Source: Pseudoxanthomonas sp. SE1
Lineage (GTDB): Bacteria > Pseudomonadota > Gammaproteobacteria > Xanthomonadales > Xanthomonadaceae
Reading direction: 5' to 3'
NCBI RefSeq assembly: GCF_029542205.1
Contig: NZ_CP113783.1
Coordinates: forward strand, 1,417,001 to 1,481,000
Length of the DNA stretch: 64,000 nucleotides
Numbering within the stretch: the stretch's first letter is position 1; each line of letters opens with the position of its first letter. The notes beneath the pieces were generated by a model. The model was given only the letters and a program-made list of their open reading frames with translations. It was not told where the DNA came from and did not search any database. Positions 7,901 through 51,398 of the stretch are shown here, in pieces. A program made the position numbers and the translations under genes.

Positions 7901-8275
7901 ATCGTCCGGCGACTGCACCACCCACGCCGACCAGGTGCCGACCAGGCCGCGCACCTTCACCCGCACGCGCCAATGCGTGCGCGCCGATTCGTTGCTGTTG
8001 TAGACCAGGTCCGTGCCGCTGTAGACCACCTTGGACGTGCCGGGGGTGCCGGCGACGTCGGGGGCGCGCTCCACTTCGTAGATTGCGCGCGGCTCACTGC
8101 TGGCGTTCCAGCTGGCCTTCACGCCGCCCAGCTGCGCGGTGACGGCGAACCCGCCAGGCGCCGCCGGTGGTGGTGCCTGGTAGGGGATCGGCATCCAGGT
8201 GCCGCCTGGCGCGGTGGTGGGCGTCAACGCTGGCAAGTCGCCGGCGCCGATCTCCAGCAGCAGGACCTTGCCCAT
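4946..8275 (-). CDS. Large tail fibre/tip protein with C-terminal Hint (intein-like) domain
   Basis: A 1109-residue protein whose start overlaps the end of the tape measure gene. The N-terminal part has a fibronectin-like stretch (FAVTAQLGGVKASWNAS). It is followed by repeated carbohydrate-binding-like jelly-roll modules (LVSFWYKTSAASF, FRIDFDTTTLGDTIDIDGIMVE, VSTGESFVPNGNFGQNKG). From Cys970 (GDWCVDFDTVLPDG) to the end there is a Hint fold: Cys at the splice-like N-terminus, DLQPGDMV, and a terminal FLAGESAGVAIATHN with His1103-Asn1104. The usual block-B TxxH is missing (ASTPMD). Known Hint domains catalyse peptide-bond rearrangement. Whether this one is active is uncertain. A host-recognition tail protein is the likely role. 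Confidence 0.82.
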   Translation of the reverse strand: MGKVLLLEIGAGDLPALTPTTAPGGTWMPIPYQAPPPAAPGGFAVTAQLGGVKASWNASSEPRAIYEVERAPDVAGTPGTSKVVYSGTDLVYNSNESARTHWRVRVKVRGLVGTWSAWVVQSPDDPLNYVGGSGVNLLPDQFSTLESATLPVTTNYGLTISRITGAGNTKVGSGGAWRLTRSGGGSTEGYLYLGNGLNVPRTPGKRYLVSFWYKTSAASFAKTHDLFVWDGVSPHIGTSGWACVADGTWRRVVVMVDPTAYTSPSMMFRIDFDTTTLGDTIDIDGIMVEPMDGNLVQASTYCRGTANGISLAALIAAQNAQATADGQIDIYRQPTAPAIGGAGAKLGDYWQDSDDGRWWYCNGSSWVESPDNRLPQAIIDAAAAQSSANTAQSTANARIRLFVQDASPAGGSYIVGDMWYRPSYRETFYWNGTGWSKNADDFASATDSLVFNPSFEQADLYWSRDPGMYTETNPAAISGSQVMVFSASFGVPNARCVNAKSIQVRPGQVLSVIGCVGRWQNIANGEGAIGLVFYNKDGAFIGEKNIAWSTAPSTGQQANAYWRTVTGRITVPYGAVKAHANLIVTGCTSGFWVFDNIRLAFTDDQPRAVSTGESFVPNGNFGQNKGQFPVAQYQPIQGEFIADGWMNDSVGGAYTSAVSVGLEAFASGNQMQLFIGDAGGTASPGSNQVYVRTGDRFAVEPGEKFIVRSEGVVDIGTPRPAGIDIFTYVGLNFYNKDGADIGYGGRQAINHAGYWLAENLVEIPAGTAYVRPIVGVQWNNTTGANVTMPWATHHARFRQCNIRRQTTLDQNVITDGTTYGRTGNIDLAMDGGVRRIGLNVRGSRIMLAGARNSRASLVAGIASVRNATALSANSSGQVTVNAHTTNVSGESVTYNAVTNAVTGLTQGVTYIIFTLDPFLDGGTRTYYAQTNVLNAQQAGEGAIIIGNITIPTSGTGTGGGPGTGNPGDWCVDFDTVLPDGRLVRDLQPGDMVPCINVRVPGARVEEHAVRAIAIGAEDCYRLVTTSGASVVQSASTPMDLPDGRVKHTPQMLGQLVLVQRGDRLSLELVSDLQFMGRRQVVKVDLGNRMFLAGESAGVAIATHNAQYKP

Positions 8276-37910: not shown

Positions 37911-37986
37911 GGGCCGTTAGCTCAGTTGGTAGAGCAGTTGACTCTTAATCAATAGGTCCAAGGTTCGAATCCTTGACGGCCCACCA
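37911..37986 (+). tRNA. tRNA-Lys (anticodon CTT)
   Basis: A 76-nt cloverleaf with encoded CCA. The 7-bp acceptor stem is GGGCCGT/ACGGCCC, the D-arm is GCTCAGTTGGTAGAGC, the anticodon stem-loop is GTTGA-CTCTTAA-TCAAT with anticodon CTT, and the T-arm has TTCGAAT. It is the only clear host gene in the window. Its 3' end faces the integrase of prophage B, which makes it the probable attachment site. Confidence 0.97.
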
Positions 37987-38101: not shown

Positions 38102-39004
38102 ATGGGACTGATTACCGACATTATTTCGGCCGGACTCGATAGCAGCACGACTGAGCTGCTCAACAAGGCACTAATTGCGGCGACGCGGTTGGGCGATGCC
38201 TCAATGGTGGAGTTCGCGTCCAAGGAGCTCAACGGCTATCAGGGATCAGATCTCCCAGACCACCGAAAGCTGCGGGGGCAACTTAAGGCGAGAACGCCAT
38301 ACTCAGGTTGGGAGGTGGCCCCGATCTCCACGGATGACCTGGGGTTCCTTCTGGTGACCAAGTTCAGCGAAGGCGTTGCCGAGATGGAGGACCTTATCTC
38401 GACCTCCGGAGCGGGGATGGTTCAGGTGATCCCTGGCCCTGGCCAGCAGCAATTGCTCAGGAAGATGTTCAGCGCCGAGAGCGACGTGACTTTCGCGCAG
38501 TTCGTCACCAAATCCGCGGTAGTCCAAAGCCTTCAGCGCAGCAGGTCCATCGTTCTTGATTGGGCCCTGAAGCTGGAGGCCAGCGGCGTAGCGGGTGACG
38601 GTTTGACGTTCTCTAGCAAGGAACGACGGGCTGCGCCCCACATCACAAACACGCTCATCAACCATGGCGTGATGTTGCAGCCGCATATCCAGCAGGGTGG
38701 CGATGGTGATCAAGCGATGGATCTGGGGCCAGACTTCCAGACGCTGTCGGCACTCATGGTGGAAGTCCTTGGACGCGTGAACGAGCTTGGACCAGCGGCC
38801 GCCGAGGCTCAGGCGGACGCCCAGACGGTGTTGGCGCAGATCAACTCCGGCAAGCCGAAAGAGGGCGTTGTGCGAGCCTGCCTGGAGTCTCTGAGGTCGA
38901 TAATGGAGAACGCTACGGGCACGCTTCTAGCTGACGAGGTCAAGAACAAGTTGGCTCCCTATTTGGTGAGTCTAGGGCCAATGATCGCGGCCCTTGCAGG
39001 TTAG
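38102..39004 (+). CDS. AbiTii-domain protein, probable phage-defence gene
   Basis: A 300-residue protein with AAGGAG 8 bases before ATG 38102. Residues about 3-47 match the AbiTii domain: LITDIISAGLDSSTTELLNK, then ALIAATRLGDASMVEFASKELNGYQG. AbiTii domains occur in predicted abortive-infection proteins. The remaining 250 residues are helical, with no visible nuclease motif. It sits between the tRNA and the integrase, a common place for lysogenic-conversion and anti-phage genes. Its stop abuts the convergent integrase stop. Base composition seems lower in G+C than its neighbours, which suggests separate acquisition. Confidence 0.75.
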   Translation: MGLITDIISAGLDSSTTELLNKALIAATRLGDASMVEFASKELNGYQGSDLPDHRKLRGQLKARTPYSGWEVAPISTDDLGFLLVTKFSEGVAEMEDLISTSGAGMVQVIPGPGQQQLLRKMFSAESDVTFAQFVTKSAVVQSLQRSRSIVLDWALKLEASGVAGDGLTFSSKERRAAPHITNTLINHGVMLQPHIQQGGDGDQAMDLGPDFQTLSALMVEVLGRVNELGPAAAEAQADAQTVLAQINSGKPKEGVVRACLESLRSIMENATGTLLADEVKNKLAPYLVSLGPMIAALAG

Positions 39005-40156
39005 TCAGGGGGCGTCCGCTGGCTTAACCAGCGGCACGCTCAGGTCGTAGACGTTCATCATCGGCTCGGTCAGGCCGGCGGCATCTTGCTTGTCGCGCTT
39101 GGTGCCCTTGGTGTCGGTGACGCCCTTGCGCTTGAGGTCGTGCAGGCTGAAGCGTTGCTCTTCGGTGATAACGCCGGCCTCAATCGCCTTCAGGATCAGG
39201 CGCTGCCAGGCGCTGTCCAAGCCGTCCTTCGTCAGCGGCTCGCCATCCTCGGACAGGAACACGAAGCGATTCTCCGGGCGCAGCTGCTCCGGTTGGCCGC
39301 GGCGGGCGATCACGCCACGCCGGTGTGCCAGCGCCGCGTCCCACGCCGCGCGCAGCCGAGGGGACCACTCCACGATGTTGTTGCGGCTGCCCTTGCGGCG
39401 ATCGGTGCGCAGGCCCTCTGCCTCGCCCTGGGCTTCCACGAGCGTGTTGGTCTCGATGCCGCGCAGGCGGCACAGGTAGCTGAGCTCGGCCACCATCCAG
39501 AGGTACGGCGGCTGGGAGCCCTTCGTGTGGGGCTTCAGGGCGCCGCGATCGCGTGAGAAGGCCAGCACGGCGTCGTAGACGGTCTGTGGCGGGAGGCGGC
39601 GGCGCCTACGCTCCTGGGCCTGCTCGATGCCCTTGGCGGGGTTCTCCTTCAGTCCCAGGTGCGGGCCGGCCCATTTGTAGACCCGGCGCAGATACCGCAG
39701 CACGTGGTTGGCCTTGGACGGGTGACCTTGGCGGACGATCTTCTCGACCAGGCGCTGCACGTTGGTCTGGGTGAGCCGGCCAGCCATGAGGGTGCCGAAC
39801 TTGCCGCCACCTGTGATGGGGAACTCCTCGATGATCTTCCGGCACACGGTGTAGTCGCGCTGGGTGGCCTTGGCCAGCGTCTTGAACTTGGTGCTGTCAT
39901 GAAAGGCGGCCAGCATCCAGGCGATCGTGCCGTGGGTGGGTCCGCCTTTGCCTTCCTCGACCAGGCGGTGCAGGTCCGACAGCTTGGCCGTGGGACCGGC
40001 GATAGTTTCGCGGGCGGGCCGGCCTTCCTTCTGGATGAACACGTACCAGCGGCCGCGGCCAGACGCATCCCAGTACACGCCGGCTGGCAGCGCTTTCTGG
40101 TCGATGTGCGCCGGGATGGTGGGGTTGAATTTGCGCTCGCGGCCGCGTGGACTCAC
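39005..40156 (-). CDS. int: Tyrosine integrase of prophage B
   Basis: A 383-residue protein with an N-terminal arm-binding-like part (HIDQKALPAGVYWDASGRGR), a core-binding helix region (LAKATQRDYTVCRKIIEEF) and a catalytic domain. Arg is in LCRLRGIETNT, Lys in RTDRRKGSRNN, HDLKRKGVTDT occupies the HxxR site (Lys in place of Arg) and the nucleophile is in MNVYDLSVPL. It is adjacent to the 3' side of the tRNA-Lys gene and convergent with the AbiTii gene. It should insert and excise prophage B. Confidence 0.92.
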   Translation of the reverse strand: MSPRGRERKFNPTIPAHIDQKALPAGVYWDASGRGRWYVFIQKEGRPARETIAGPTAKLSDLHRLVEEGKGGPTHGTIAWMLAAFHDSTKFKTLAKATQRDYTVCRKIIEEFPITGGGKFGTLMAGRLTQTNVQRLVEKIVRQGHPSKANHVLRYLRRVYKWAGPHLGLKENPAKGIEQAQERRRRRLPPQTVYDAVLAFSRDRGALKPHTKGSQPPYLWMVAELSYLCRLRGIETNTLVEAQGEAEGLRTDRRKGSRNNIVEWSPRLRAAWDAALAHRRGVIARRGQPEQLRPENRFVFLSEDGEPLTKDGLDSAWQRLILKAIEAGVITEEQRFSLHDLKRKGVTDTKGTKRDKQDAAGLTEPMMNVYDLSVPLVKPADAP

Positions 40157-41115: not shown

Positions 41116-43125
41116 CTACGGCTTCTTCTTTGCCGGCTTGGCCTTCGGTGCCGCTGCCTTCTTGGCCGCTTTCTTGGCGGGCGACTTCTTGGCAGGGGTC
41201 TTCTTCGCCGGTGTCTTTTTGGCGGCCGCCTTCTTCGCGGCCTTCTTGGGCTTGGCGGCGGGCTCGTCCTGCGCGTTGGTCTGCTCGAGCTTATTGCCGT
41301 ACGACGGGCCGCGCAGCAGCTTCGGCAGCCAGCCGGTGCCGGCCAGCAGCTTCGCGCCCAGCGCAGCGCGTTCGTCCTTCTTCAGGCCGAGCAGCGTGGC
41401 CGCTGCTTCCTCCCCCTTGGCCTCGGTGACCGCCTGGGTAAGCAGGTCGGCATGGATCCGGCCGGCGAAGTTGTCCACCTCAGGTGACCAGTGGTCGGCC
41501 ATGTTGAAGTCGGTCACCTGGTGGATCGCGTCGACGCCGTCGTGGCCGCGATCGCTGCCGGTCCCGCCGTCGAAGTGGGCGACCACCAGCGCGGCCTGCA
41601 GGTCGAGACGCCATGCATCGGTCTGCCGCAGCAGGAACGCGAGCGTGTCCTTGCGGGGAACCTGCTTGATGATCTGCAGGCGCTCCGCGATGGCGGCGCT
41701 GACGGCCTTGTGGATGTCGGCCTCGGTACGCGGGCCGCTGTTGCCGAACGACAGGTGCAGCCCGTTGTTGCCGTAGCTGTTGGGCCAGTGCGACATCAGC
41801 AGACGCTCCAGCAGCACGCAGTGCGCCAGGGTCGAATCCTTGGCCAGCTGCATCGCCGCGGCCGCACTCCGGTGTGCCGAGAGCGTTACGCGCATTGCCT
41901 CGGACAGTTCGGGCTTCTTCGCCGGCTTGGGAGCCCTCGGCTCTTCGCTCGGGGTGGCGCCTGCACTCGCTGTCCTCGGCGACGGGCGGAGTTTCGCCCA
42001 CTGGTATTCCAGGTTGCCGCCATCGCTCAGGTAGACGAGCACGCCGGACTCAGCCTTCACGTCGGCCGGATACGAGGCGATGCAGCGGGCGTCGATGACA
42101 TCGCGCTCCTCGTACAGACGATCCTGCTCGTCCTGCAGGTCGCGCTGGGCGTCCAGGTCCAGCTCGTCCACATCGATGTCGTCGATCGCATCCAGCCTGG
42201 CGGAGATCTCGGCGTGGCGCGCCTCGTCCTGCGGCGACGCGAACTGGTCGTCACCCTTGGCCGAATAGTGGCGCGCGTGGTCGCCGAACGCATGGCGCTC
42301 CTGGTGGCTCATGCTCACGCGGGCCTCGACCCATGCCCATCCGTCTGCACGCAGCTGCTCTGCAATCGCCTCGAGACGATCCAGGGCAAGGGAGTCCAGC
42401 AAGGGCAGGTCGAGCAGGTACACGTGCTCGGAGAACAGATCCGTTCGAACGCGGCCTCCTGCCTGCTCGTAGGCGTCCAGGCTGACGAACTGCGGCAGCG
42501 GGCTGTCGCTGCGCACCGACTCGCGCGTGATGAAGTCACGCAGGTGGGTGGGCGAGCGCTCGTACTCGCCGCGCGCCGTCTCCCACGCTTGGCGCTGCAG
42601 CTCGTGGTTGTCGGTGGTGGCCAGGGCTGTCAGCTGGTCGATGTTCATGCCGCCGGCGCGGTAGATCTCGAACAGGTCGGGGCGCACGTTGGCCAGGCGC
42701 AGGCGCTGCTCGATGTGGCGCGCTGTCTTGCCGAAGCGCACGGCGATCTCGCCGATCGCCTTGCCCTCGGTGACCAGCTGCTGGAAGGCGACGAACTCGT
42801 CGGCCGGGTGCATGGCTTGGCGCATCAGGTTGGCTGTCAGGCCCGCCTCGGTACCGCGCTCGGCTTCGACTACGTGGCACGGCACATTGCTGAGTGCATC
42901 AGTCAGGCGACCCTCGTTCTGCAGCAGCTGGAGCGCCTGCAGGCGGCGGCCGCCGTCCTCGACTTCGAACAGGCCGTCGTTGGCTGCGGTCACGACCAGG
43001 TTGTTGAGCACGCCCTCGGCCGCGATGCTGGCGGCCAGCTCGTCAACGGCGGTTGCGCCGGTCTTGCGCACGTTGCGGGGGGACAGGCGCAGCTGCGCCA
43101 GCGGAATGGTCTGGATGTTGGTCAT
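41116..43125 (-). CDS. ParB-like protein with histone H1-like C-terminal tail
   Basis: A 669-residue protein from ATG 43125, whose ATGA overlaps the reverse transcriptase stop. Residues 1-200 are a ParB/RepB nuclease-like and DNA-binding region: IPLAQLRLSPRNVRKTG, VEDGGRRLQALQLL, TANLMRQAMHPADEFVAFQQ, EIAVRFGKTARHIEQRLRLA. The middle is Asp/Glu-rich. The last 50 residues are Lys-Ala-Pro repeats (KKAAKKAAAKKTPAKKTPAK), like bacterial histone-like tails. It should bind DNA tightly. Coupling to the DGR reverse transcriptase is notable. Confidence 0.85.
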   Translation of the reverse strand: MTNIQTIPLAQLRLSPRNVRKTGATAVDELAASIAAEGVLNNLVVTAANDGLFEVEDGGRRLQALQLLQNEGRLTDALSNVPCHVVEAERGTEAGLTANLMRQAMHPADEFVAFQQLVTEGKAIGEIAVRFGKTARHIEQRLRLANVRPDLFEIYRAGGMNIDQLTALATTDNHELQRQAWETARGEYERSPTHLRDFITRESVRSDSPLPQFVSLDAYEQAGGRVRTDLFSEHVYLLDLPLLDSLALDRLEAIAEQLRADGWAWVEARVSMSHQERHAFGDHARHYSAKGDDQFASPQDEARHAEISARLDAIDDIDVDELDLDAQRDLQDEQDRLYEERDVIDARCIASYPADVKAESGVLVYLSDGGNLEYQWAKLRPSPRTASAGATPSEEPRAPKPAKKPELSEAMRVTLSAHRSAAAAMQLAKDSTLAHCVLLERLLMSHWPNSYGNNGLHLSFGNSGPRTEADIHKAVSAAIAERLQIIKQVPRKDTLAFLLRQTDAWRLDLQAALVVAHFDGGTGSDRGHDGVDAIHQVTDFNMADHWSPEVDNFAGRIHADLLTQAVTEAKGEEAAATLLGLKKDERAALGAKLLAGTGWLPKLLRGPSYGNKLEQTNAQDEPAAKPKKAAKKAAAKKTPAKKTPAKKSPAKKAAKKAAAPKAKPAKKKP

Positions 43126-44483
43126 GCGGTGCGGATCCTCAGAGTGATGCGCCTGGCAGACAGGCGGTGATGGAAGCGGCGCGGTGCCGCGGCGGTACGA
43201 AGCCAGGCGAAGCGTCGGCGGATGGCCGCGCGCAGGCGGTGGGTGTTGGCGTGCTGCAGGTGCCCGGCGTAGCTGGACACCACGCAGCGGATGCGGGCGA
43301 GATCGTTGGGAGTGGCGCGGATGCGGCCGCCGGCGACGTGGACGCCTTCCCACTCGGCCAGCGCCTTGCGCAGGTGCGCGATGACGCGCGGTCGCGCCAG
43401 CGTGTGCGTGGGGTAGATCACGTAGCCCAGGAAGTCCAGACCATCGGTCAGGCGGCGCAGGCGGATCTCCGGCTTGAGTGAGAGCCGCAGCTCGGTGGCG
43501 AGGAACTCCACGATCTGCGCCTGCCAGCGCTCCAACTGCTCACGGTCGTGGTGGAAGAGCACGAAGTCGTCGACGTAACGCAGGTAGCGCTTGGCCTTGA
43601 GCACGTGCTTGGCGAACTGGTCCAGTGCGTCCAGGTACACGTTGGCGAAGAACTGGGACGACAGATTGCCGATGGGCAGGCCGCAGCCCGGCCGCGCATT
43701 GGCGAGCCGCTTGTGGGGCGGCACCTGCGCCAGCTCGTCGGCTGTCGCACGCACCTGCACGCCCGCCTTGCCCGGGTCGTGGCGCAGCAACGCATGGGTC
43801 ACGCGCAGCGCTTGATCGGGCAGGCCGGCGCGCTGCAGGCGCGGCTTGAGCATGCGCCACAAGGTCGGGCGGTGGATGCTGTTGAAGAAGTTGTGGATGT
43901 CCAGCTGCAGGTAGTAGCCGCCGCCCTGGCCGCTGTGCACCTGCCGGGCGAAGGCCTGCGCCCGCCGCACCGCCGCGTGCGTGCCCTTGCCGCGCCGGTT
44001 GGCGAAGCTGTCATGGATGAAACGCGGTTCGTAGATCGCCTCCAACTCCGGCACCAGCCAGTGGTGCACGACGCGATCAGCGAAGTCCGGCGCGTGGATC
44101 TCGCGCGCCTTCGGGCGTGTGGCGATGAAGCAGGTGGATGGGCGTGGCGACCATGTGCCCGTGAGGATCTCGCGTTCGATCTGGAGCAGCCCGCCCATCC
44201 ACCGGTCATCGAAGCGCAGCTGGTTTTGGCTGGGCACCTTCTGCCGGCGTGCGCGCTTCCATGCGTAGTACAGCCCCTGCAGCAGCGAGGGCTTCCGTTC
44301 CCCTTGAAACTCACCGACGCGGCGCACGGCCAACGCGAACCCGTTGTTGTTGCGGTGGTTGTTGTTGACGTTGCCGTTGTTGAAGTTGACGTTCCACGCG
44401 GACGCCGAGGACCAGGCGGCCGCCTCCCCATACACTTGCGACCAGGCCACGCAGCTCGGATGTGGGTAGCGTGGCTTCGTCAT
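43122..44483 (-). CDS. Diversity-generating retroelement reverse transcriptase
   Basis: A 453-residue protein from ATG 44483, overlapping the avd stop as ATGA. The RT core starts near residue 66 (SLLQGLYYAWKRARRQK). Catalytic blocks are YYLQLDIHNFFNSI, then CGLPIGNLSSQFFANVYLDA carrying the DGR-specific IGxxxSQ motif, then LRYVDDFVLFHH with the YVDD box, and LDFLGYVIYP. DGR reverse transcriptases copy the TR RNA with errors at adenines and feed the cDNA into VR. Residues about 22-58 are encoded by the template repeat itself, so the first 60 residues may be incidental or the true start may be internal. Confidence 0.95.
   Translation of the reverse strand: MTKPRYPHPSCVAWSQVYGEAAAWSSASAWNVNFNNGNVNNNHRNNNGFALAVRRVGEFQGERKPSLLQGLYYAWKRARRQKVPSQNQLRFDDRWMGGLLQIEREILTGTWSPRPSTCFIATRPKAREIHAPDFADRVVHHWLVPELEAIYEPRFIHDSFANRRGKGTHAAVRRAQAFARQVHSGQGGGYYLQLDIHNFFNSIHRPTLWRMLKPRLQRAGLPDQALRVTHALLRHDPGKAGVQVRATADELAQVPPHKRLANARPGCGLPIGNLSSQFFANVYLDALDQFAKHVLKAKRYLRYVDDFVLFHHDREQLERWQAQIVEFLATELRLSLKPEIRLRRLTDGLDFLGYVIYPTHTLARPRVIAHLRKALAEWEGVHVAGGRIRATPNDLARIRCVVSSYAGHLQHANTHRLRAAIRRRFAWLRTAAAPRRFHHRLSARRITLRIRTA
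44313..44420 (-). repeat. DGR template repeat (TR)
   Basis: A 108-bp copy of the 3' ends of the three target genes, inside the 5' part of the RT frame. The central 54 bp is 11 AAC codons and one CAC, with only GTC, TTC, GGC and CGC between, giving 23 adenines. The flanks are identical to VR, including 30 bp of GGGTTCGCG...GTCGGT. The TR continues GAG where all VRs have CAG, the kind of mismatch that separates IMH* from IMH. AAC-type codons cannot mutate to stop codons at the adenines. Confidence 0.95.
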
Positions 44484-44920
44484 CGATTGGCCCCCGCAGA
44501 GGCGGTATGGGTACTCAGTTTCTGGCCACGCTGCGGGGCGGCACGACAGCCGCCCGCATTCTGGGCTTGAGGGGAAGGCTGGCGGTTCCACCCGCCGACC
44601 TGCGCGCCGAGCTCTTCAGCCTGGCGTGCGAGGTGCTCGAAGTGACGGAAGCTGCGGAAGGCCTTGATCAGCTTGGCCGTCTGCATGTGCTGCTTGAGCT
44701 CGTCGACGGCCCACACCAGCTGACCGACCCACCGGCGGCGGTGCGCCTGGTCGCGCCATGCGCGCGAGGCCAGCTGCACCACGGTGCTGGCGGCGCGGCG
44801 CAGGTCACTGCCGATCTGGTACTTGTGGTAGCGATCGAAGCCGCGCACGAACTGCTCGATGTCCACGAGCAGGCGCTGTGCGGCCTTGATGATCGGCGGC
44901 GGCTGGTAGCGGGACGTCAT
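44480..44920 (-). CDS. avd: Avd, DGR accessory variability determinant
   Basis: A 146-residue protein. The first 105 residues form the Avd four-helix bundle: IIKAAQRLLVDIEQFVRGFD, HKYQIGSDLRRAASTVVQLA, WVGQLVWAVDELKQHMQTAK, FRSFRHFEHLARQAEELG. It is basic, as needed to bind RT and the TR RNA. The last 40 residues are Gln/Pro/Ala-rich and probably disordered; their codons would lie in the 5' part of the TR-containing RNA. The order avd, TR, RT is the same as in the Bordetella phage system. Confidence 0.9.
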   Translation of the reverse strand: MTSRYQPPPIIKAAQRLLVDIEQFVRGFDRYHKYQIGSDLRRAASTVVQLASRAWRDQAHRRRWVGQLVWAVDELKQHMQTAKLIKAFRSFRHFEHLARQAEELGAQVGGWNRQPSPQAQNAGGCRAAPQRGQKLSTHTASAGANR

Positions 44921-44956
44921 CGGTCAGATCAGGTCAAAGGGGCCAATTACTGACCG
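44921..44956. repeat. Inverted repeat at the end of VR1
   Basis: CGGTCAG (44921-44927) and CTGACCG (44950-44956) flank the stop codon region, with a 22-bp loop containing TTGGCCCCTTTG. A matching pair exists at VR3. DGR targets in other phages need a hairpin just past the VR; this may be its counterpart, although the loop is longer than usual. Confidence 0.5.
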
Positions 44957-45372
44957 ACGCGGCGCACGGCCAACGCGAACCCGCCGTTGCTGCGGAGGTA
45001 GGCGTTGACGCCGCCGAGGCTGAAGCTGACGCTCCACGCGGACGCCGAGGACCAGGCGGCGGGCGTCTTGCTCCAGTACCAGTCGTTCTGGATGTCGCGG
45101 AAGAACACGGTGTCGATGGCCGGGTTGTAGCGCTCGCGGTCGACCAGCAGCTGCAGCTCGTCGATGGTCGGGAGATCCCAATCGGTGGCGCCGAGCAGGT
45201 CCAGCGCCACGGCCTGCGCTTGCAGAGACTCCTGGTCGGCCTCTTCCTCGTTGATCTGTGTGGCGGTGAAGATCAGGCCGTGCTCGGGCAACTTCACGGC
45301 GACCCAGTCGGTCGCGTCGGCGGGCAGTTCCTGGCCATCGGCGGCCAGCTTGATGAGGGTGGGCTTTTTCAT
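44947..45372 (-). CDS. DGR target protein 1 (DUF1566, C-type-lectin-like)
   Basis: A 141-residue protein from ATG 45372 with AGGAG 8 bases upstream. It has a DUF1566/formylglycine-enzyme-like C-lectin fold: LIFTATQINEEEADQES, TDWDLPTIDELQLLVDRERY, NPAIDTVFFRDIQNDWYWSK. It then ends in the variable segment AWSVSFSLGGVNAYLRSNGG and FALAVRRVGQ. The varied residues should lie on the exposed ligand face. No signal peptide is visible. It differs from TR at 14 bases in the variable codons, all at adenines. Confidence 0.93.
   Translation of the reverse strand: MKKPTLIKLAADGQELPADATDWVAVKLPEHGLIFTATQINEEEADQESLQAQAVALDLLGATDWDLPTIDELQLLVDRERYNPAIDTVFFRDIQNDWYWSKTPAAWSSASAWSVSFSLGGVNAYLRSNGGFALAVRRVGQ
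44953..45060 (-). repeat. DGR variable repeat VR1
   Basis: The 3' end of target gene 1, aligned without gaps to TR over 108 bp. In the 12 variable codons 14 bases differ, each at a TR adenine (for example AAC to AGC, CTC, GGC, GCC and TAC, and CAC to CTC). Flanks are identical. Confidence 0.95.
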
Positions 45373-45408
45373 GGTGTGTGCTCCTGGATGGAAGGGCAAA
45401 GGGGCCAA

Positions 45409-46017
45409 CTACTGACCGACGCGGCGCACGGCCAACGCGAACCCGAGGTCGTAGCGGTGGAGGTTGTTGATGCGGCCGAGGCTGAAGTCGACGCCCCACG
45501 CGGACGCCGAGGACCAGGCGCAAGGCGTGCTGGTCCAGTGCCAGCGCGGCTTCACGCGCGGGAAGAGGTTGGTGTCGATGGCGGGCTCGTGGCGCGCGTC
45601 GTCGACCAGGCTGGCCAGCTGTGCGCGCGTGGGCAGGAACCAGTCCTCGTAGCCCAGCAGCGTGTATTCCCTTGCCAGCTCGACGCACTTGTCATGCGAC
45701 ATGCCACTGTCTTCGTCGTTCGGATCGCCCAACGACTCGACGGACCACATCAGGCCCGCATGGTGATCGATCACCGCGACATGGGTGTCACGCGGATCCT
45801 CGGCGGATACTTCTGTGCCGTCGGCGAGGACCTTGCTGAAGCGCGCGGCGGTGGCCTGCGCCTTGGCTTGGGTCACCGCCTCGTTTACGAGTTCAGCGAC
45901 GGCGTTGCGGTCGACGTTCACCTCCAGCGGAGCCACGACCGGGCGGGCGGAGTTGGCTTCGGGCTGCGGGTACAGGTTGAGCGTCACGTGCTCGGTGTGG
46001 ATGGTGATGTTGTCCAT
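45409..46017 (-). CDS. DGR target protein 2 (DUF1566, C-type-lectin-like)
   Basis: A 202-residue protein from ATG 46017. An extra N-terminal region of about 90 residues (IHTEHVTLNLYPQPEANS, AELVNEAVTQAKAQATAARF) precedes the DUF1566 domain: THVAVIDHHAGLMWSVESLG, EDWFLPTRAQLASLVDDARH, PAIDTNLFPRVKPRWHWTST. The variable end reads AWGVDFSLGRINNLHRYDLG. It differs from TR at 15 bases, 14 of them adenines. The N-terminal helix may serve to attach it to another structure. It ends 36 bp before the target 1 start. Confidence 0.93.
   Translation of the reverse strand: MDNITIHTEHVTLNLYPQPEANSARPVVAPLEVNVDRNAVAELVNEAVTQAKAQATAARFSKVLADGTEVSAEDPRDTHVAVIDHHAGLMWSVESLGDPNDEDSGMSHDKCVELAREYTLLGYEDWFLPTRAQLASLVDDARHEPAIDTNLFPRVKPRWHWTSTPCAWSSASAWGVDFSLGRINNLHRYDLGFALAVRRVGQ
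45415..45520 (-). repeat. DGR variable repeat VR2
   Basis: The 3' end of target gene 2. Fourteen adenine positions changed relative to TR, plus one G to A change (GTC to ATC, Val to Ile) that is not adenine-directed and may be ordinary mutation. It lacks the CGGTCAG/CTGACCG pair seen at VR1 and VR3 but keeps the following GGCCCCTTTG. Confidence 0.94.
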
Positions 46018-46027
46018 GGCGTGATCC

Positions 46028-46255
46028 TCAGTGGCGCCGGTCGGTCGGCGTGATGGCGTGCTGGGGCATGGCGCGGTCAGGGATCGGCTTGCCCTGGTCG
46101 GCGAGCTGCGTCTCCAGCGCCTCGATGTACTGCTGGTCGGCACGCCACTGCTTTTCAAGGCGCTCGAAGTGGTTGGCGTCGATGGGCAGGCCTTTGCCTT
46201 CGGCGGCGTTCGCAAGCGCACCGAGGGCGTCGGGTCCGGTCAGTTCTTTGGGCAT
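46028..46255 (-). CDS. Hypothetical protein in the DGR operon
   Basis: A 75-residue protein (MPKELTGPDALGALANAAEG) with a helical core (FERLEKQWRADQQYIEALET). It ends 10 bp before target gene 2 and overlaps the gene upstream by 16 bp. It may be co-expressed with the target protein. No family is recognised. Confidence 0.6.
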   Translation of the reverse strand: MPKELTGPDALGALANAAEGKGLPIDANHFERLEKQWRADQQYIEALETQLADQGKPIPDRAMPQHAITPTDRRH

Positions 46256-46428
46256 TCGGGTTCTCCAGGCGGTGGTTGGTCCTTCGCCAGGTGCAGCTGG
46301 ATGCGTTCCAGCAGCAGGCGAGGGCAGTGGTGGTCGGGTAGGTCGTGGAAGACGCGCTCGGCGTCTCGCAGCAGCTGGTTGGCACGCCTCAGTTGCTTGC
46401 CCAGGCGCGGGGCGGACGGCGCGGTCAT
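46240..46428 (-). CDS. Small helical hypothetical protein
   Basis: A 62-residue protein from ATG 46428 (MTAPSAPRLGKQLRRANQLL). It is basic and helical. An ATGA overlap with the upstream gene supports coupled translation. The function is unknown. Confidence 0.55.
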   Translation of the reverse strand: MTAPSAPRLGKQLRRANQLLRDAERVFHDLPDHHCPRLLLERIQLHLAKDQPPPGEPECPKN

Positions 46429-46649
46429 TCCTCTTCGTCTGACAGCCGCCGTCGCTTGCGTTCGCGGTTCTGCCGCTTGATCAGCAGCAACTTGGCGCGC
46501 TCGATGGCCTTCATCGATTTGCCCTCGCGGATGGGCGTGTTGCCGAGCACCTCGATGGTGTTGCCCTTCTTCTTGAGAAAGCGCTGTAGATCGCCGGCGA
46601 TCGCGTCGCTCTCGGCCTGTTTCTGGCGGCTGCGGGGCGGCAGGATCAC
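46425..46649 (-). CDS. Small basic hypothetical protein
   Basis: A 74-residue protein. GTG 46649 is preferred because GGGAGG lies 5 bases upstream and it overlaps the preceding TGA as GTGA; an ATG at 46664 is possible. The sequence includes DLQRFLKKKGNTIEVLGNTP and a very basic end (AKLLLIKRQNRERKRRRL). It may bind nucleic acid. Confidence 0.55.
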   Translation of the reverse strand: MILPPRSRQKQAESDAIAGDLQRFLKKKGNTIEVLGNTPIREGKSMKAIERAKLLLIKRQNRERKRRRLSDEEE

Positions 46650-46894
46650 GGCCGCCTCCCGCATAAGTGTCGACCCGTGGCATCTAGCCGTGGTGTGATG
46701 CCGCCCATTGCGGTCGAGAGGTATTGGCAACCCGTTGCCTGATCGACGTGCAGCCCAAGTCCGGATCGCTCGCGTGCGTCATGGTTGTCGGTTTCGTCGA
46801 AGCCGATTCGCAACCACGAAAACAGCGCGCTGAGCAGGAAGTAGACAGCTACGCACCAGAAGAGGTCGCGCTTGAGCTCCTGATACGCGCTCAC
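46646..46894 (-). CDS. Small membrane protein in the DGR operon
   Basis: An 82-residue protein starting at GTG 46894, overlapping the upstream TGA (GTGA). One transmembrane helix lies at about residues 12-29 (FWCVAVYFLLSALFSWL), followed by a soluble tail. The function is unknown. Confidence 0.58.
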   Translation of the reverse strand: MSAYQELKRDLFWCVAVYFLLSALFSWLRIGFDETDNHDARERSGLGLHVDQATGCQYLSTAMGGITPRLDATGRHLCGRRP

Positions 46895-47451
46895 GGTGAC
46901 ACCTCGCTTGCGCTTCGCTGGGGGCACTCCGGGTACGCGCACGGCGCCCCGTCGCTCTGCGTGCAGCCCGGGTGAGAACAGGCGCCGCGGTCGAGGAGGT
47001 CGATGACACTGAGTCCACCGCAGATGTCGAGCAGCATCATCGCCATGTTGGCCACGTCAGCGGCGTACTCGCGAATGCCGGGACCGTTGTCGTCACGGAC
47101 AGCCTTCTGGAGCTTGGCCAAGTGGTAGTAGATTTCGAGAAGCGCGAACTCGGGAGACATCGTCAGCCACCCTTGGCGGTCGCCTTTCCCCGCGTTCGCA
47201 TGCAGCTCGCTCTCCATGGCTCGGAGGAAGGGTCGAAGCACATCGGCGTACTTTCCTGTCAGCGGTCCCGGGGTCGCGGTGGCAACCAGTGCGCGCAGCT
47301 CGACGCCACGCAGGCGCATGAAGTCCAAGAGCTCAACGCCGAACTGCGTGGCGGCCTGCTCGTCGTACTGCTCCTTCTGAAACAACAAGCGGCCCTGGGC
47401 TGCGAGCAGGTGATCCAACTGCTGAAGGATTTCGCTGGCACCGGCGATCAC
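46891..47451 (-). CDS. Hypothetical phage protein with C-terminal cysteines
   Basis: A 186-residue helical protein (MIAGASEILQQLDHLLAAQG). The central REYAADVANMAMMLLDICGG resembles a motif seen in many phage early proteins of unknown function. The C-terminus has four Cys (ACSHPGCTQSDGAPCAYPEC) that could bind zinc. It overlaps both neighbours by four bases. Confidence 0.68.
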   Translation of the reverse strand: MIAGASEILQQLDHLLAAQGRLLFQKEQYDEQAATQFGVELLDFMRLRGVELRALVATATPGPLTGKYADVLRPFLRAMESELHANAGKGDRQGWLTMSPEFALLEIYYHLAKLQKAVRDDNGPGIREYAADVANMAMMLLDICGGLSVIDLLDRGACSHPGCTQSDGAPCAYPECPQRSASEVSP

Positions 47452-47729
47452 TTCGCACCCGCCTGTTCCAGCTCCTGCGCACTCCGCACGCCGGCCTCGG
47501 TCAGCGTGATGCGAGTGGGAAATTCGGGTTCGTCGAACGTGACCAGGCCGGCATCGAGCAGGCGGTTGACCGTGCGGCGGGTGAAGGCTTGGAACAGCTT
47601 GGGGCCGCTGTGGCGCACGGTGGACGTGCCCAGGGCGACGTAGCCGCCGCAGGCGCGCTGCAGCGTGTGGCTGGGGGTGGCGATGGCTGCGAGCAGGGCG
47701 TCGCGCATCTTGGGCTGCAACTCGGGCAT
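47448..47729 (-). CDS. Small winged-helix-like protein
   Basis: A 93-residue protein (MPELQPKMRDALLAAIATPS). The sequence FTRRTVNRLLDAGLVTFDEP followed by RITLTEAGVRSAQELE has the form of a winged helix-turn-helix. A DNA-binding role is possible. It lies in the leftward operon with a 4-bp overlap. Confidence 0.62.
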   Translation of the reverse strand: MPELQPKMRDALLAAIATPSHTLQRACGGYVALGTSTVRHSGPKLFQAFTRRTVNRLLDAGLVTFDEPEFPTRITLTEAGVRSAQELEQAGAK

Positions 47730-47730
47730 G

Positions 47731-47898
47731 TCAGCTCCAGCGGCCGCCGGCGGCGGCCAGGGTGAGGACGATCAGGGTGGCCAGCAGCAGCCACCCGATG
47801 ACGCCGGCCGCGCGCAGGCGCATGCGGGTGGGCGGGGTGAAGTCGGGCGTGGTGTGCTGGATGCTCTCCAGCGCGCCCAGGAACGGCGTGCGCTTCAT
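47731..47898 (-). CDS. Small membrane protein
   Basis: A 55-residue protein (MKRTPFLGALESIQHTTPDF) with one hydrophobic helix (VIGWLLLATLIVLTLAAAG, about residues 33-51). Its ATG overlaps the upstream stop (47895-47898), and its stop lies one base from the next gene. Spacing supports its being real. Confidence 0.55.
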   Translation of the reverse strand: MKRTPFLGALESIQHTTPDFTPPTRMRLRAAGVIGWLLLATLIVLTLAAAGGRWS

Positions 47899-48194
47899 GC
47901 GACACCTGCCTGCAGGGCGGCGTGCACATCCTGAATCTCGGCGTCGCAGGCTTCGCGCACGCTCAGCCAGAGGCGCTTGCGGTCTTCGTCGCGCACCAGA
48001 CGCAGCCGCTTGAGGTTGTCGAGCGATGCCTGGTGGGCGATGGCGACGGCATCGGCTCGCTGCTGCAGGGTGATGCTGTGGTCGGCGGCGCGGGCCTCGG
48101 CGTCGGCCAGCTCGCGCTCGTGGCGGCGGGTGACCAGCACGACGAGCAAGATGTGCAGCGCGACGACGGTCGCGGCAAGGATGACGGTGGTCAT
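47895..48194 (-). CDS. Membrane-anchored coiled-coil protein (Rz-like topology)
   Basis: A 99-residue protein from ATG 48194. An N-terminal helix (TVILAATVVALHILLVVLV) is followed by a long charged coiled coil (RRHERELADAEARAADHSIT, RADAVAIAHQASLDNLKRL). The topology resembles an Rz spanin, but the gene lies in an early operon, so the function stays open. Confidence 0.58.
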   Translation of the reverse strand: MTTVILAATVVALHILLVVLVTRRHERELADAEARAADHSITLQQRADAVAIAHQASLDNLKRLRLVRDEDRKRLWLSVREACDAEIQDVHAALQAGVA

Positions 48195-48385
48195 GCGTGG
48201 CTCCTGGGTGCGAGGGCCCACCAACTGCTGGGCTCGATGTCGCGGTTGCCTTTGACGATGCGCACGCCGATGCAGGCCGAGCACGGGTGGTGGTCGCAGG
48301 CGCTGTGGTCCTGCAGGTGCAAGTAGGGCGGCAGCGTGGCGTTGGCCACGTCGCGGCGGCGGTCGAAGGCGGGGGCTTCGTTCAT
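48191..48385 (-). CDS. Small Cys/His-rich protein
   Basis: A 64-residue protein from ATG 48385 (MNEAPAFDRRRDVANATLPP). The stretch HSACDHHPCSACIGVRIVKG has three Cys and three His that could bind a metal. ATGA overlaps occur at both ends. The function is unknown. Confidence 0.55.
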   Translation of the reverse strand: MNEAPAFDRRRDVANATLPPYLHLQDHSACDHHPCSACIGVRIVKGNRDIEPSSWWALAPRSHA

Positions 48386-48468
48386 GCACGCGGCCTCCGG
48401 GTGAGGCGCGCCTCGGCGATCAGCAGGCCGATCACCAAGAGCATGCAGAGCAGCGTGGCCGGACTCAT
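48382..48468 (-). CDS. Very small membrane peptide
   Basis: A 28-residue frame (MSPATLLCMLLVIGLLIAEA) that is a single hydrophobic helix with a basic end (RLTRRPRA). It overlaps both neighbours by ATGA, the same joint as the rest of this operon, which is the main reason to accept it. Confidence 0.4.
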   Translation of the reverse strand: MSPATLLCMLLVIGLLIAEARLTRRPRA

Positions 48469-48659
48469 GCGCGCCTCGTCTTGCCGGCGCGGATCGCGAC
48501 ATCGCAGGCTTCGTCGTAGGCTTGTGCGAACGTGACCTCGCCGCGAGCGACGCGGCAGGGTTGCGCCGCGTCATCTACGCAACCGCCCGTGTTGGCGGCG
48601 TGGGACGTCACGTAGAGCGGGCACGCAGGCACGCCCGGGCATTCCGTCGACACGATCAC
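48465..48659 (-). CDS. Small Cys-containing protein
   Basis: A 64-residue protein (MIVSTECPGVPACPLYVTSH) with four Cys in the first 35 residues (ECPGVPAC, GGCVDDAAQPC) and a helical end (TFAQAYDEACDVAIRAGK). It could bind zinc. No family is recognised. Confidence 0.52.
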   Translation of the reverse strand: MIVSTECPGVPACPLYVTSHAANTGGCVDDAAQPCRVARGEVTFAQAYDEACDVAIRAGKTRRA

Positions 48660-48925
48660 TTCGCACCCCCGAAGCGGGCGAGGGCGGCGGCGTACCGCGC
48701 GTCGGCCTCGCGACTGCGCTGGTAGAGCGGGCCAGGCTCTTGGCGTTGGCGTTCGTCCGAGCTAGCCCATGCCGTCTGCGCACTGTCGCGCTCGCGGCAT
48801 GCCTCGATCAGCTCGGCGACAGCAGCGCCAACCTGCGCCAGCGCCCACGCCTGCGAGCCCTCGGGCGCGTCCGCATCGGCGCCGGCGCGCTCCAGAGTCC
48901 CGGCGATGTCTACGGTGGCGTTCAT
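48656..48925 (-). CDS. Small helical protein
   Basis: An 89-residue protein from ATG 48925 (MNATVDIAGTLERAGADADA). It is Ala/Glu-rich with helices (VGAAVAELIEACRERDSAQT). It overlaps both neighbours by four bases. The function is unknown. Confidence 0.55.
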   Translation of the reverse strand: MNATVDIAGTLERAGADADAPEGSQAWALAQVGAAVAELIEACRERDSAQTAWASSDERQRQEPGPLYQRSREADARYAAALARFGGAK

Positions 48926-49122
48926 GCCGCACCTCCTTGGGCGCGCTCGGCCTGCCTGCGCAGCAGCCGGATGTGGCTGGCCACGTAGTTGCCGGTGCGG
49001 CCGTGCTGGTTCTCGGAGATCACCAAGCGCGTGGCATCGCGGCGCAGGTTGGGCAGGCCGGCGCGGTCCAGCTCGCGGTGGGCACGGCGCACGGCCTCCA
49101 GGTCGATCGCGAAGGTGGCCAT
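48922..49122 (-). CDS. Small hypothetical protein
   Basis: A 66-residue protein from ATG 49122 (MATFAIDLEAVRRAHRELDR). Basic and partly helical (YVASHIRLLRRQAERAQ). It shares its first base with the last base of the upstream gene. A small regulator or nucleic-acid binder is possible. Confidence 0.52.
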   Translation of the reverse strand: MATFAIDLEAVRRAHRELDRAGLPNLRRDATRLVISENQHGRTGNYVASHIRLLRRQAERAQGGAA

Positions 49123-49340
49123 CAGCGTGCCTCCCTGGCCAGCTCGCGGGCGCGCACTTCCTCGCGCTCGCTGCGTACGTGCAGGCGCGGCACATGACGG
49201 CGGTTGTGGCCCGCGCGCAGCTGTTCGGCGTGCGCGTGGTCGTGGTTGCTGCAGGTGCGCAGGCAGCGCGCAGCGGCGTGCGGAAGCGGGACCAGCGTGT
49301 CGGTCTGCTGGTCGTCGGACATGGTGCAGGCGTCGAACAT
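49122..49340 (-). CDS. Small His/Cys-rich protein
   Basis: A 72-residue protein from ATG 49340, or ATG 49322 (MSDDQQTDTLVPLPHAA). CLRTCSNHDHAHAEQLRAGH may bind metal. It starts 35 bp after target gene 3, next to the VR3 inverted repeat. Confidence in translation is moderate. Confidence 0.45.
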   Translation of the reverse strand: MFDACTMSDDQQTDTLVPLPHAAARCLRTCSNHDHAHAEQLRAGHNRRHVPRLHVRSEREEVRARELAREAR

Positions 49341-49351
49341 GGCAGCGTCTC

Positions 49352-49385
49352 CGGTCAGGTAGGCAAAGGGGCCGATTACTGACCG
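49352..49385. repeat. Inverted repeat at the end of VR3
   Basis: CGGTCAG (49352-49358) and CTGACCG (49379-49385) surround a 20-bp loop that contains the target stop codon region and GGCCCCTTTG. The arrangement copies that at VR1, 4.4 kb away. Confidence 0.5.
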
Positions 49386-49780
49386 ACGCGGCGCACGGCC
49401 AACGCGAACCCGCCGTTGGTGCGGCGGCCGTCGGAGACGTAGCCGTCGTAGAAGAGGACGAGCCACGCGGACGCCGAGGACCAGGCGCACAGGTCACTGC
49501 TCCAGAACCAGCCGCCCTTGATTTCGGGGAAGGCGTTGGTGTCGATGGCCGGGTCGAAGCGGGTGATGTCGACCAGGGTGAGCAGCTCGGCGCGGGTGGG
49601 CAGGCGGAAGCCGCCGCCGTCGTGCTCGACTGCGGCGCAGGCGTCGATCGCCTGCTGGTGTTCGTAGCGACCGGCCAGCGGCGTGCGCAGCCACTCCAGG
49701 CCGGTGGTCGTGTCGACGACGGTCAGGCTGGTGGCGGCATCGCCGGTGGGGTAGGTGAAGCGGGCTTCGGCATTGGACAT
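49376..49780 (-). CDS. DGR target protein 3 (DUF1566, C-type-lectin-like)
   Basis: A 134-residue protein, the first gene behind the leftward promoter. It is almost only a DUF1566 domain: TVVDTTTGLEWLRTPLAGRY, GGFRLPTRAELLTLVDITRF, PAIDTNAFPEIKGGWFWSSD. The variable end reads AWLVLFYDGYVSDGRRTNGG and FALAVRRVGQ. It differs from TR at 16 bases, all adenines, making it the most diverged of the three. It lies about 3.4 kb upstream of target 2 and is separated from the RT by some 15 genes. Confidence 0.93.
   Translation of the reverse strand: MSNAEARFTYPTGDAATSLTVVDTTTGLEWLRTPLAGRYEHQQAIDACAAVEHDGGGFRLPTRAELLTLVDITRFDPAIDTNAFPEIKGGWFWSSDLCAWSSASAWLVLFYDGYVSDGRRTNGGFALAVRRVGQ
49382..49487 (-). repeat. 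DGR variable repeat VR3
   Basis: The 3' end of target gene 3, gap-free against TR. Sixteen of 23 TR adenines in the variable segment are changed (AAC to CTC twice, TAC, GAC, TCC, GGC and ACC, and CAC to CGC) and no other base. Confidence 0.95.
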
Positions 49781-50651: not shown

Positions 50652-51398
50652 CTACCCGCCCTGTCGGTAAATGAACTCGCCCCGGATCCTTAGGAGGTCT
50701 GCGTGTTCAGGGCTTATGCGCTCGTCCGGGAAACGACGCTTGTCAGGATTATTGCTCTCGAGTATCCAGCTGCCATCGATATCGCGCCTAAGTCGTTTGA
50801 TCTTCATGCCATCTGGATGATCGATCAAAAAGATTGCCCCAGATTTTGGCGTGGTCTTCCTGCTGTTGAACAGCACTATGTCGCCGTCAACTATGAAGTC
50901 AGCCATGCTGTCGCCATCAGCGAACACGCCGATGACGTCGTCGGACTGCACGCCATACCGTTTGAACCACGCAGCCTCTTTAATGAGGGGTGCGCGGGGT
51001 TCGAGTTCCCATGCGACTGCCCCGCCTCCGCAAGAGCCGTACGCGTCGATCATGTGAATCGGGCCGTAGGCGTCGCGCGCGTACTCCCAGTCAGAATTGT
51101 CGGGCTCGAAGACCTTATAGATCTCGCGCGACGCATTGCCGCCAGGCCGCATCGGCCCGCGCCCAGTGTTGAGCCACTCCGGTCGAACGCCTAACGCCTG
51201 CGAGATAGGCAGCAGCGCCTTTCCAAGGGACTTGGTGGATCCGTTGAACCATCCATGGACGCTCGGCGGCTTTACCCCTGCAAGCCTTGCCAACTCGGCT
51301 GGCTTCGGCGGGTCGAGGAGTTCACTGAGTGCAATATGCAGTCGCCGCGCCAGGGGTGTCGGCGCGGATGACGCTGCGGTGTCAGGTGCTGATTCCAT
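50652..51398 (-). CDS. CI-type repressor with S24 peptidase domain
   Basis: A 248-residue protein. The N-terminal helix-turn-helix (PAELARLAGVKPPSVHGWFN, KSLGKALLPISQALGV) is followed by a linker and a LexA-like C-terminal domain: SDDVIGVFADGDSMADFIVD with the catalytic Ser in GDSM, IVLFNSRKTTPKSGAIFLID, and Lys in GMKIKRL. RecA-stimulated self-cleavage would relieve repression after DNA damage. An operator overlaps its start codon, suggesting autoregulation. It should control both the rightward genes and the DGR operon. Confidence 0.9.
   Translation of the reverse strand: MESAPDTAASSAPTPLARRLHIALSELLDPPKPAELARLAGVKPPSVHGWFNGSTKSLGKALLPISQALGVRPEWLNTGRGPMRPGGNASREIYKVFEPDNSDWEYARDAYGPIHMIDAYGSCGGGAVAWELEPRAPLIKEAAWFKRYGVQSDDVIGVFADGDSMADFIVDGDIVLFNSRKTTPKSGAIFLIDHPDGMKIKRLRRDIDGSWILESNNPDKRRFPDERISPEHADLLRIRGEFIYRQGG

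Follow-up and report, generated by a model that had tools for sequence, protein, structure and literature searches.

The stretch analysed here (the window) comprises 64,000 nucleotides (nt) of the genome of Pseudoxanthomonas sp. SE1 (contig NZ_CP113783.1, positions 1,417,001 to 1,481,000), and all coordinates below refer to it. On its minus strand, inside an integrated phage genome designated prophage B, lies a diversity-generating retroelement (DGR) with a reverse transcriptase (RT), the protein Avd, one template repeat (TR) and three variable repeats (VRs) at the ends of three target genes. The initial annotation of this DNA had called the element complete, with one template and three targets, and every part of it is indeed in place:

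43122-44483, minus strand: DGR-type RT of 453 amino acids (aa), containing the TR (PHROG 1423, E 1e-99)
44480-44920, minus strand: Avd, 146 aa (PHROG 3206 'Avd protein of DGR', E 1.5e-13), its last ~30 codons within an RNA leader described below
44309-44420, minus strand: TR, in frame with the RT and with the VRs
44949-45060, minus strand: VR1, from repeat comparison with the TR
45411-45522, minus strand: VR2, from the same comparison
49378-49489, minus strand: VR3, from the same comparison
44947-45372, minus strand: target 1, 141 aa, Lcl_C/DUF1566 (Pfam Lcl_C, E 6.3e-19, scored on a slightly longer reading)
45409-46017, minus strand: target 2, 202 aa, Lcl_C/DUF1566 (Pfam Lcl_C, E 4.9e-21)
49376-49780, minus strand: target 3, 134 aa, Lcl_C/DUF1566 (Pfam Lcl_C, E 2.9e-22)

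The RT carries IGNLSSQ and YVDD, presumably the motifs of a DGR RT, and its closest solved relative is 8ub7_A (E 3.3e-34), which we take to be the RT of phage BPP-1. The SQ motif of DGR RTs is mentioned in PMC3521204. Avd scores 34.1 bits in NCBIfam (cut-off 80) and 22.8 bits in Pfam (cut-off 40), below both, and its earlier assignment stands on the PHROG family; those of the RT and of the three DUF1566 genes agree with the matches above. The reading frames of RT, Avd and all three targets are open. The C-type-lectin-like label of the targets comes from the Lcl_C/DUF1566 family match. Compared with the PDB by sequence, a target profile gave one weak match at E ≤ 1 (8q4e, HbP1, E 3.8e-5), and target 3 alone gave no useful match. 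A role in defence was considered and dropped: PADLOC matches the RT to general and DRT-type RT models and a neighbouring gene to AbiTii, and Avd and the three targets match nothing there.

The TR measures 108 bp (44313-44420), or 112 bp if extended to 44309, and together with the three VRs it makes up the only copies of the repeat at E ≤ 0.001 in the whole 4.23-Mb genome. Realignment bears out the earlier description of a 108-bp template with three gap-free VRs, coordinates included. Over 112 bp, VR1, VR2 and VR3 differ from the TR at 15, 18 and 19 bases, of which 14, 14 and 16 are TR adenines (hypergeometric p 1e-10, 2e-8 and 6e-11), i.e., 44 of the 52 differences. A recount limited to the variable codons returns the same 14, 15 and 16 changes that had been reported, 44 of 45 at TR adenines; the remaining seven of the 52 sit at the two ends of the repeat. 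Each of the 24 TR adenines is at codon position 1 or 2, 22 of them are altered in at least one VR, and the three VRs carry mutually different outcomes. The adenine bias is far above chance (p 2e-8 or lower), in line with the adenine-directed mutagenesis that had been claimed, and the locus is a DGR with one template and three targets.

Since the likely RT start, an ATG at 44483 that overlaps the avd stop by 4 nt (ATGA), is upstream of the TR, the TR lies within the RT frame, and one stretch of RNA would be template, protein code and part of the predicted fold at once. A search with the RT retrieved 56 viral loci and 23 loci on genome contigs, which make 80 sequences with the window; a TR was found in 76. 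The arrangement recurs in 66 loci, with an RT-frame ATG upstream of the TR, a 4-nt ATGA overlap with the stop of the upstream open reading frame, and a frame open through the TR; an Avd match precedes the RT in all 70 loci of the L010-L079 set. The RT frame reads the TR in the VR frame in 64 of the 66. In the other two (L052, L057) it reads the TR in another frame, still open, in which the TR peptide is not conserved, and a protein function of the translated TR is unsupported for that reason. In nine loci whose RTs are more distant (L075, L076, L078, L081-L086), the TR is not wholly within the RT frame. An open RT frame through the TR is not special in itself: other phage DGR records have one, among them the BPP-1-like L209, where the annotated RT start comes after the TR.

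What sets this cassette apart from BPP-1 is the sequence around the TR, where a structured leader and helices that would close across the template can be predicted:

44423-44580, minus strand: structured RNA leader with helices P1-P5, 158 nt, overlapping the end of avd and RT codons 1-20 and ending 2 nt before the TR
44505-44511, minus strand: 5′ strand of P3, partner 44427-44433, enclosing the RT start codon
44499-44503, minus strand: 5′ strand of P4, partner 44490-44494
44517-44522, minus strand: 5′ strand of P6 (GAAACU), with GAGU (44513-44516), the site of the predicted priming base, next to it
44306-44311, minus strand: 3′ strand of P6 (AGUUUC), beginning one base past TR-VR identity
44571-44575, minus strand: 5′ strand of P7, a weaker outer helix, partner 44300-44304; four of its five pairs form in the window

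The leader alignment contains 42 of 61 loci that are non-redundant at 97%, and its consensus fold has 29 pairs, 22 of them with compensatory changes. P3 is paired in 99.3% of alignment cells with compensatory changes at all seven pairs, and P4 in 97.6%, with one of five pairs changing on both sides. Covariation is 0.458, against 0.183 ± 0.009 in shuffled alignments and at most 0.139 in slid versions; the shuffles overstate the contrast because the loci are related, a relatedness that the slid control keeps. Within the leader the core ACTGAGT is invariant in the 42 loci. Alifold energy compared with column shuffles gives z −13.2 for the leader, −3.0 for the 3′ side of the TR and −4.0 for a control from the RT interior, so that a structured spacer 3′ of the TR was rejected as a candidate. 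Divergence at four-fold third positions (61 loci) follows the same boundaries: in blocks of ten codons, avd falls from 0.37-0.61 to 0.24, 0.14 and 0.17 over its final three blocks, and the RT has 0.29 and 0.31 in codons 1-20, 0.10-0.20 in codons 21-50, which hold most of the TR, 0.33 in codons 51-60 and 0.59 directly past codon 60 and the TR, the RT average being 0.48 with other single blocks down to 0.32. A search of Rfam gave zero matches at E ≤ 1 in 43000-46500.

P6 would tie the leader to the far edge of the template. In its general form, leader GAXACU is complementary to AGUX′UC directly 3′ of the TR. It was spotted from co-varying letters and tested afterwards. The leader motif was found by regular expression in 72 of 73 non-redundant loci (L061 was missed), and X and X′ are complementary in 69 of the 72, 13 of these as U.G; L050 lacks the 3′ pattern by script and shows CACACU/AGUGUG, which is complementary, by eye. 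In an unguided scan over 14,140 column pairs, X-X′ comes first by mutual information, with 72 of 73 loci complementary, and RNAalifold finds all six P6 pairs unprompted. In the 42-locus alignment P6 is paired in 252 of 252 cells, four of its positions never vary and the GAGU after it is invariant; covariation of leader plus P6 is 0.422 against 0.159 ± 0.008 shuffled. P7 is paired in 85.1% of cells, with compensatory changes at four of five pairs.

The flanks of the repeats separate template from targets. TR flanks fit P6 at six of six letters in 58 of 58 loci (three of the 61 were dropped since the motif was not found), and VR flanks do so in 0 of 118, with five of six in 25. Because VR flanks do not complete P6, only the TR would act as donor. 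The consensus 3′ edge is CCGGTCAGTaATT in VRs versus CCGGTGAGTtTCAGG in TRs. Past the stop codon, the VRs of L010-L079 have CCGGTCAGTaATT in common, in many cases with T-rich sequence after it; the TR is without this motif, which is likely the homing site.

For a wider view of the distribution we used a covariance model of the leader, R1, against which the leader of the window scores 143 bits, and a sequence pattern, GCGNGNNNAGANACTGAGT. The pattern matches at least 120 viral loci. Among the matches listed, 67 have a relative of the RT 219-276 nt downstream on the same strand; of the 53 others listed, four carry the leader within ~300 nt of the end of their stretch, where the RT would fall beyond it, and 49, having no match at E ≤ 0.01, are most likely chance. 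With R1 the leader turns up in 11 of the 297 family genomes, own included, and, under stricter filters than the family scan, in 1 of 369 genomes of the class, which is the own genome; it is also present in both genus relatives that have the RT (L008, L009). All 11 loci of the family scan have a complete P6 (nine by pattern, L224 and L226 by best match). In L226 a position that is constant in the 42 loci shows a compensatory change, and, not counting the own genome, six of the 11 have none of the tested 60-nt stretches in common with the earlier loci. Five of 12 genome loci with distant RTs have the leader 0-41 nt before the TR at 39-61 bits (L075, L076, L080, L082, L084). In L075, the TR ends ~745 nt before the RT match and outside the RT frame, which suggests that the leader travels with the TR rather than with the RT start. 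L076 and L082 show six complementary letters of different sequence at the place corresponding to P6; it is the place that counts there, as six-letter words are expected by chance in such a search. The leader model or the 19-nt pattern offers a sequence handle to find such DGRs in raw contigs.

We hypothesize, with a probability of about 0.72, that the window holds a complete DGR in a prophage of ~42 kb in which the conserved 5′ leader and the helix across the TR likely hold the 3′ end of the template for RT-Avd, and that error-prone copies would rewrite the three lectin-like genes at adenines. The leader-TR RNA would be the template complex for reverse transcription: RT-Avd would bind the leader, P6 would fix the 3′ edge of the TR and mark the start of the complementary DNA (cDNA), the cDNA would run through the TR with errors at adenines, and its product would replace VR sequence in the three target genes. 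The leader would do the job of the BPP-1 3′ spacer, and the cDNA is predicted to be primed from the leader beside P6, with the invariant G or A of CUGAGU as the most likely site. The steps past RNA folding are modelled on BPP-1 (PMC12875486). With its defined helix and its predicted priming base, this second architecture would make initiation of DGR cDNA testable in many phages.

Several observations weigh against this proposal. The template RNA, its fold and the cDNA are predictions from sequence, and the RNA of the window by itself folds no better than shuffles (z 0.44). The 42-row alignment shows no variation in four of the six P6 pairs, which leaves one pair as the main source of the P6 covariation, and the loci are related: Fitch counts on the RT tree of 61 loci give 8 changes of X, 8 of X′ and 9 of the pair, of which one X change and one pair change are artefactual (L053, L055 and L062, where another ATGA was taken and the motif missed; these three are U.G at X-X′ and the other 58 are complementary). 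Among the 73 loci, L134 breaks the variable pair of P6, and L141 lacks the 3′ pattern, with five of six pairs by eye. Seven of the 12 distant genome loci have no leader by R1 (L078, L081, L083, L086, L087 and L088; L085 gives a chance match only). Where these distant loci do have it, L075 and L084 show only five pairs, by eye, within the end of the assigned TR, with the longest words of the script elsewhere, and P6 is not seen in L080. Strain SE1 is a single isolate, for which support for activity is comparative, from relatives. Finally, a role in RT translation is also possible since P4 hides the ribosome site.

The setting of the cassette bears on what the targets may do. Prophage B spans ~42 kb, is bounded by identical 47-bp repeats of a tRNA-Lys end and contains head and tail genes on the plus strand, with a full tail module. 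On its DGR side, the window shows:

37940-37986, plus strand: left attachment (att) repeat in the tRNA-Lys end; the identical 47-bp copy is at window coordinate 80129-80175, beyond the window
39005-40156, minus strand: prophage integrase (PHROG 1 'integrase', E 2.5e-25)
41116-43125, minus strand: ParB-like gene, between the genes for integrase and RT (best E 9e-20 among PHROG ParB-like families)
50652-51398, minus strand: CI-like repressor (PHROG 4 'transcriptional repressor', E 4.3e-32; Pfam Peptidase_S24)

An AbiTii-like defence gene (38102-39004; Pfam E 1.2e-26, PADLOC E 1.2e-30) lies just within the left att repeat.

It is somewhat short of an even chance, in our estimate, that the targets belong to the virion and bind its receptor, as in BPP-1, with the DGR shifting host recognition. 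Receptor-binding proteins are the chief targets of phage DGRs (PMC10743442; PMC8144416), and with a full tail module present the DGR would lie near that module in the circular phage genome. However, the targets are small and match no tail family in Pfam or PHROGs. Together with the DGR they stand between integrase and repressor on the minus strand, the head and tail genes being on the plus strand, which in the window places the targets outside the late operon, and relatives keep that side: among the 70 related loci L010-L079, wherever a match exists, the integrase is downstream on the DGR strand (17 of 17), as is the ParB-like gene (12 of 12), the repressor is upstream on the DGR strand (11 of 11) and a primase is upstream on the opposite strand (4 of 4), in stretches that end short of the late genes.

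Alternatively, the 5′ structure would only control translation of the RT, and the template would be primed from sequence 3′ of the TR as in BPP-1. The partner strand of P4 covers the GGGG ahead of the RT start, the start codon lies between the strands of P3 and the ATGA overlap couples the RT to avd, all of which would suit such a control. We nevertheless consider it unlikely: in L075 and L084 the leader stands 1 and 27 nt before the TR though the RT frame excludes the TR in both, P6 spans the TR to its 3′ flank and not to the RT start, and the 3′ side is without constraint above the RT interior control, with only ~20-35 nt from the TR to the conserved RT start of related proteins.

It is also improbable that the DGR of strain SE1 is a silent remnant, although it is represented by one isolate without reads and the RT occurs in only 3 of 38 genomes of the genus, own included. 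The frames are open, the VR outcomes differ, and the flanks and P6 are intact. Related cassettes were also compared. L049 and L071 have 98.2% cassette identity and identical TRs, and every difference between their VRs (16 and 14) falls on a TR adenine; in L022 and L034 (93.8%), with the TR unchanged, the VRs differ at 13 and 11 TR adenines, again with zero differences elsewhere. The initial annotation had proposed a check among near relatives for VR variation at adenines with an unvaried TR, and these two pairs provide it. Other compared pairs have at most three non-adenine differences per VR and at most two TR differences, and four pairs show no differences at all, not even in the VRs. Because the VRs of related cassettes differ mainly at TR adenines, the lineage looks active. 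A separate observation concerns L064. Most adenines are gone from its TR (near 7862-7973), which reads SVLLHGGGVGNLRRDSSG where its relative L048 still has NVNLHNGNVNNNHRNNSG, as though the template had been overwritten by a VR.

That the conserved 5′ sequence is a signal in DNA, for example an overlapping gene or the promoter of a template transcript of its own, would fit the very low third-position divergence and the invariant ACTGAGT core, but is very improbable: the five leader helices carry compensatory changes, as do paired positions over 200 nt from each other, and the slid controls collapse.

The cassette has the DGR features that were compared, namely the kind of RT, adenine-directed TR-VR pairs, VRs at target ends and Avd. 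Several targets per RT are no novelty. Among the 76 loci with a TR, nine have one VR, 57 have two, nine have three and one has four, as counted within flank lengths and contig ends, so at least two VRs occur in 67. This agrees with the earlier remark that multi-target DGRs are a known class. The arrangement with several targets, which had been said to deserve description, is common among relatives and was described before (PMC3521204; PMC6642488): multi-VR DGRs make up about a seventh of an early data set (PMC3521204), and Stenotrophomonas sp. SKA14 and others have several DUF1566 targets per RT (PMC6642488; PMC10743442). SKA14 differs in having two TRs and six VRs, five in DUF1566 genes (PMC6642488), instead of one TR and three VRs. 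The TR also overlaps the 5′ part of the RT frame in DiGReF structural group 3; the excerpted text of PMC3521204 names this overlap as an architecture, with no mention of an avd-coupled, translated overlap or of an RNA element. What is new, provisionally, is the architecture of the template RNA, which was outside the claim of the initial annotation: neither a leader 5′ of the TR nor a helix across it is described in the open-licence PMC literature searched, a novelty that is provisional because the main subscription papers lie outside that search.

Three phage DGRs, those of Burkholderia phage Magia, Pseudomonas phage LPPA56 and Shewanella phage QDWS, resemble the cassette in their position near an integrase, two VRs each and a TR in an open RT frame; they differ in having RTs at 35-38% identity and no significant R1 match (L211 only E 0.76, not at the TR). 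The records L210, L211 and L215 are phage DGRs near an integrase gene, and the Magia record names a lectin-fold gene as a potential DGR target. R1 has no significant match in seven phage DGR records, the BPP-1-like L209 included.

BPP-1 (mtd-avd-TR-brt) is, within the open-licence literature searched, the only DGR for which the RNA that controls copying has been described in detail. It shares with our cassette the order target-avd-TR-RT on one strand, Avd, adenine-directed VRs in the 3′ end of the target and a TR 3′ edge unlike that of the VR. The difference lies in the RNA: in BPP-1, a structured spacer 3′ of the TR recruits RT-Avd and primes the cDNA (PMC12875486), whereas here the structure is 5′ of the TR, and no spacer of the BPP-1 type is evident, constraint 3′ of the TR not rising above background. 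The BPP-1-like L209 has ~160 nt between TR and annotated RT, and a stretch of 9 nt at its avd end is complementary to one in the spacer; BPP-1 may thus be closed by a contact of a different kind. The BPP-1 type of hairpin after the VR was rejected (30 of 154 VRs against 40 of 154 shuffled); in the window, repeats of 8 and 7 bp follow VR1 and VR3, and none follows VR2.

Retrons (msr-msd-RT) offer a parallel in layout. In them, a stem joins the RNA 5′ part to the template 3′ end and an invariant G follows the 5′ strand of the stem (PMC6868368), as P6 and GAGU do here. The cassette is likened to a retron in layout only and is not one: its RT is DGR-type (46.4 bits against a cut-off of 235 for the retron St85 model), its template is an adenine-mutated repeat with targets, and branched DNA is a retron feature, with none known here. 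More tentatively, and with the odds leaning against it, we conjecture a retron-like DGR whose template RNA is permuted, with the primer 5′ of the template: the leader would fold back, P6 would clamp the TR 3′ end, and the 2′-OH of the invariant G (or A) of CUGAGU would start mutagenic cDNA. If so, DGRs would use two topologies, a 3′ spacer as in BPP-1 and a 5′ leader as here, the second of which would link DGRs to retrons in mechanism.

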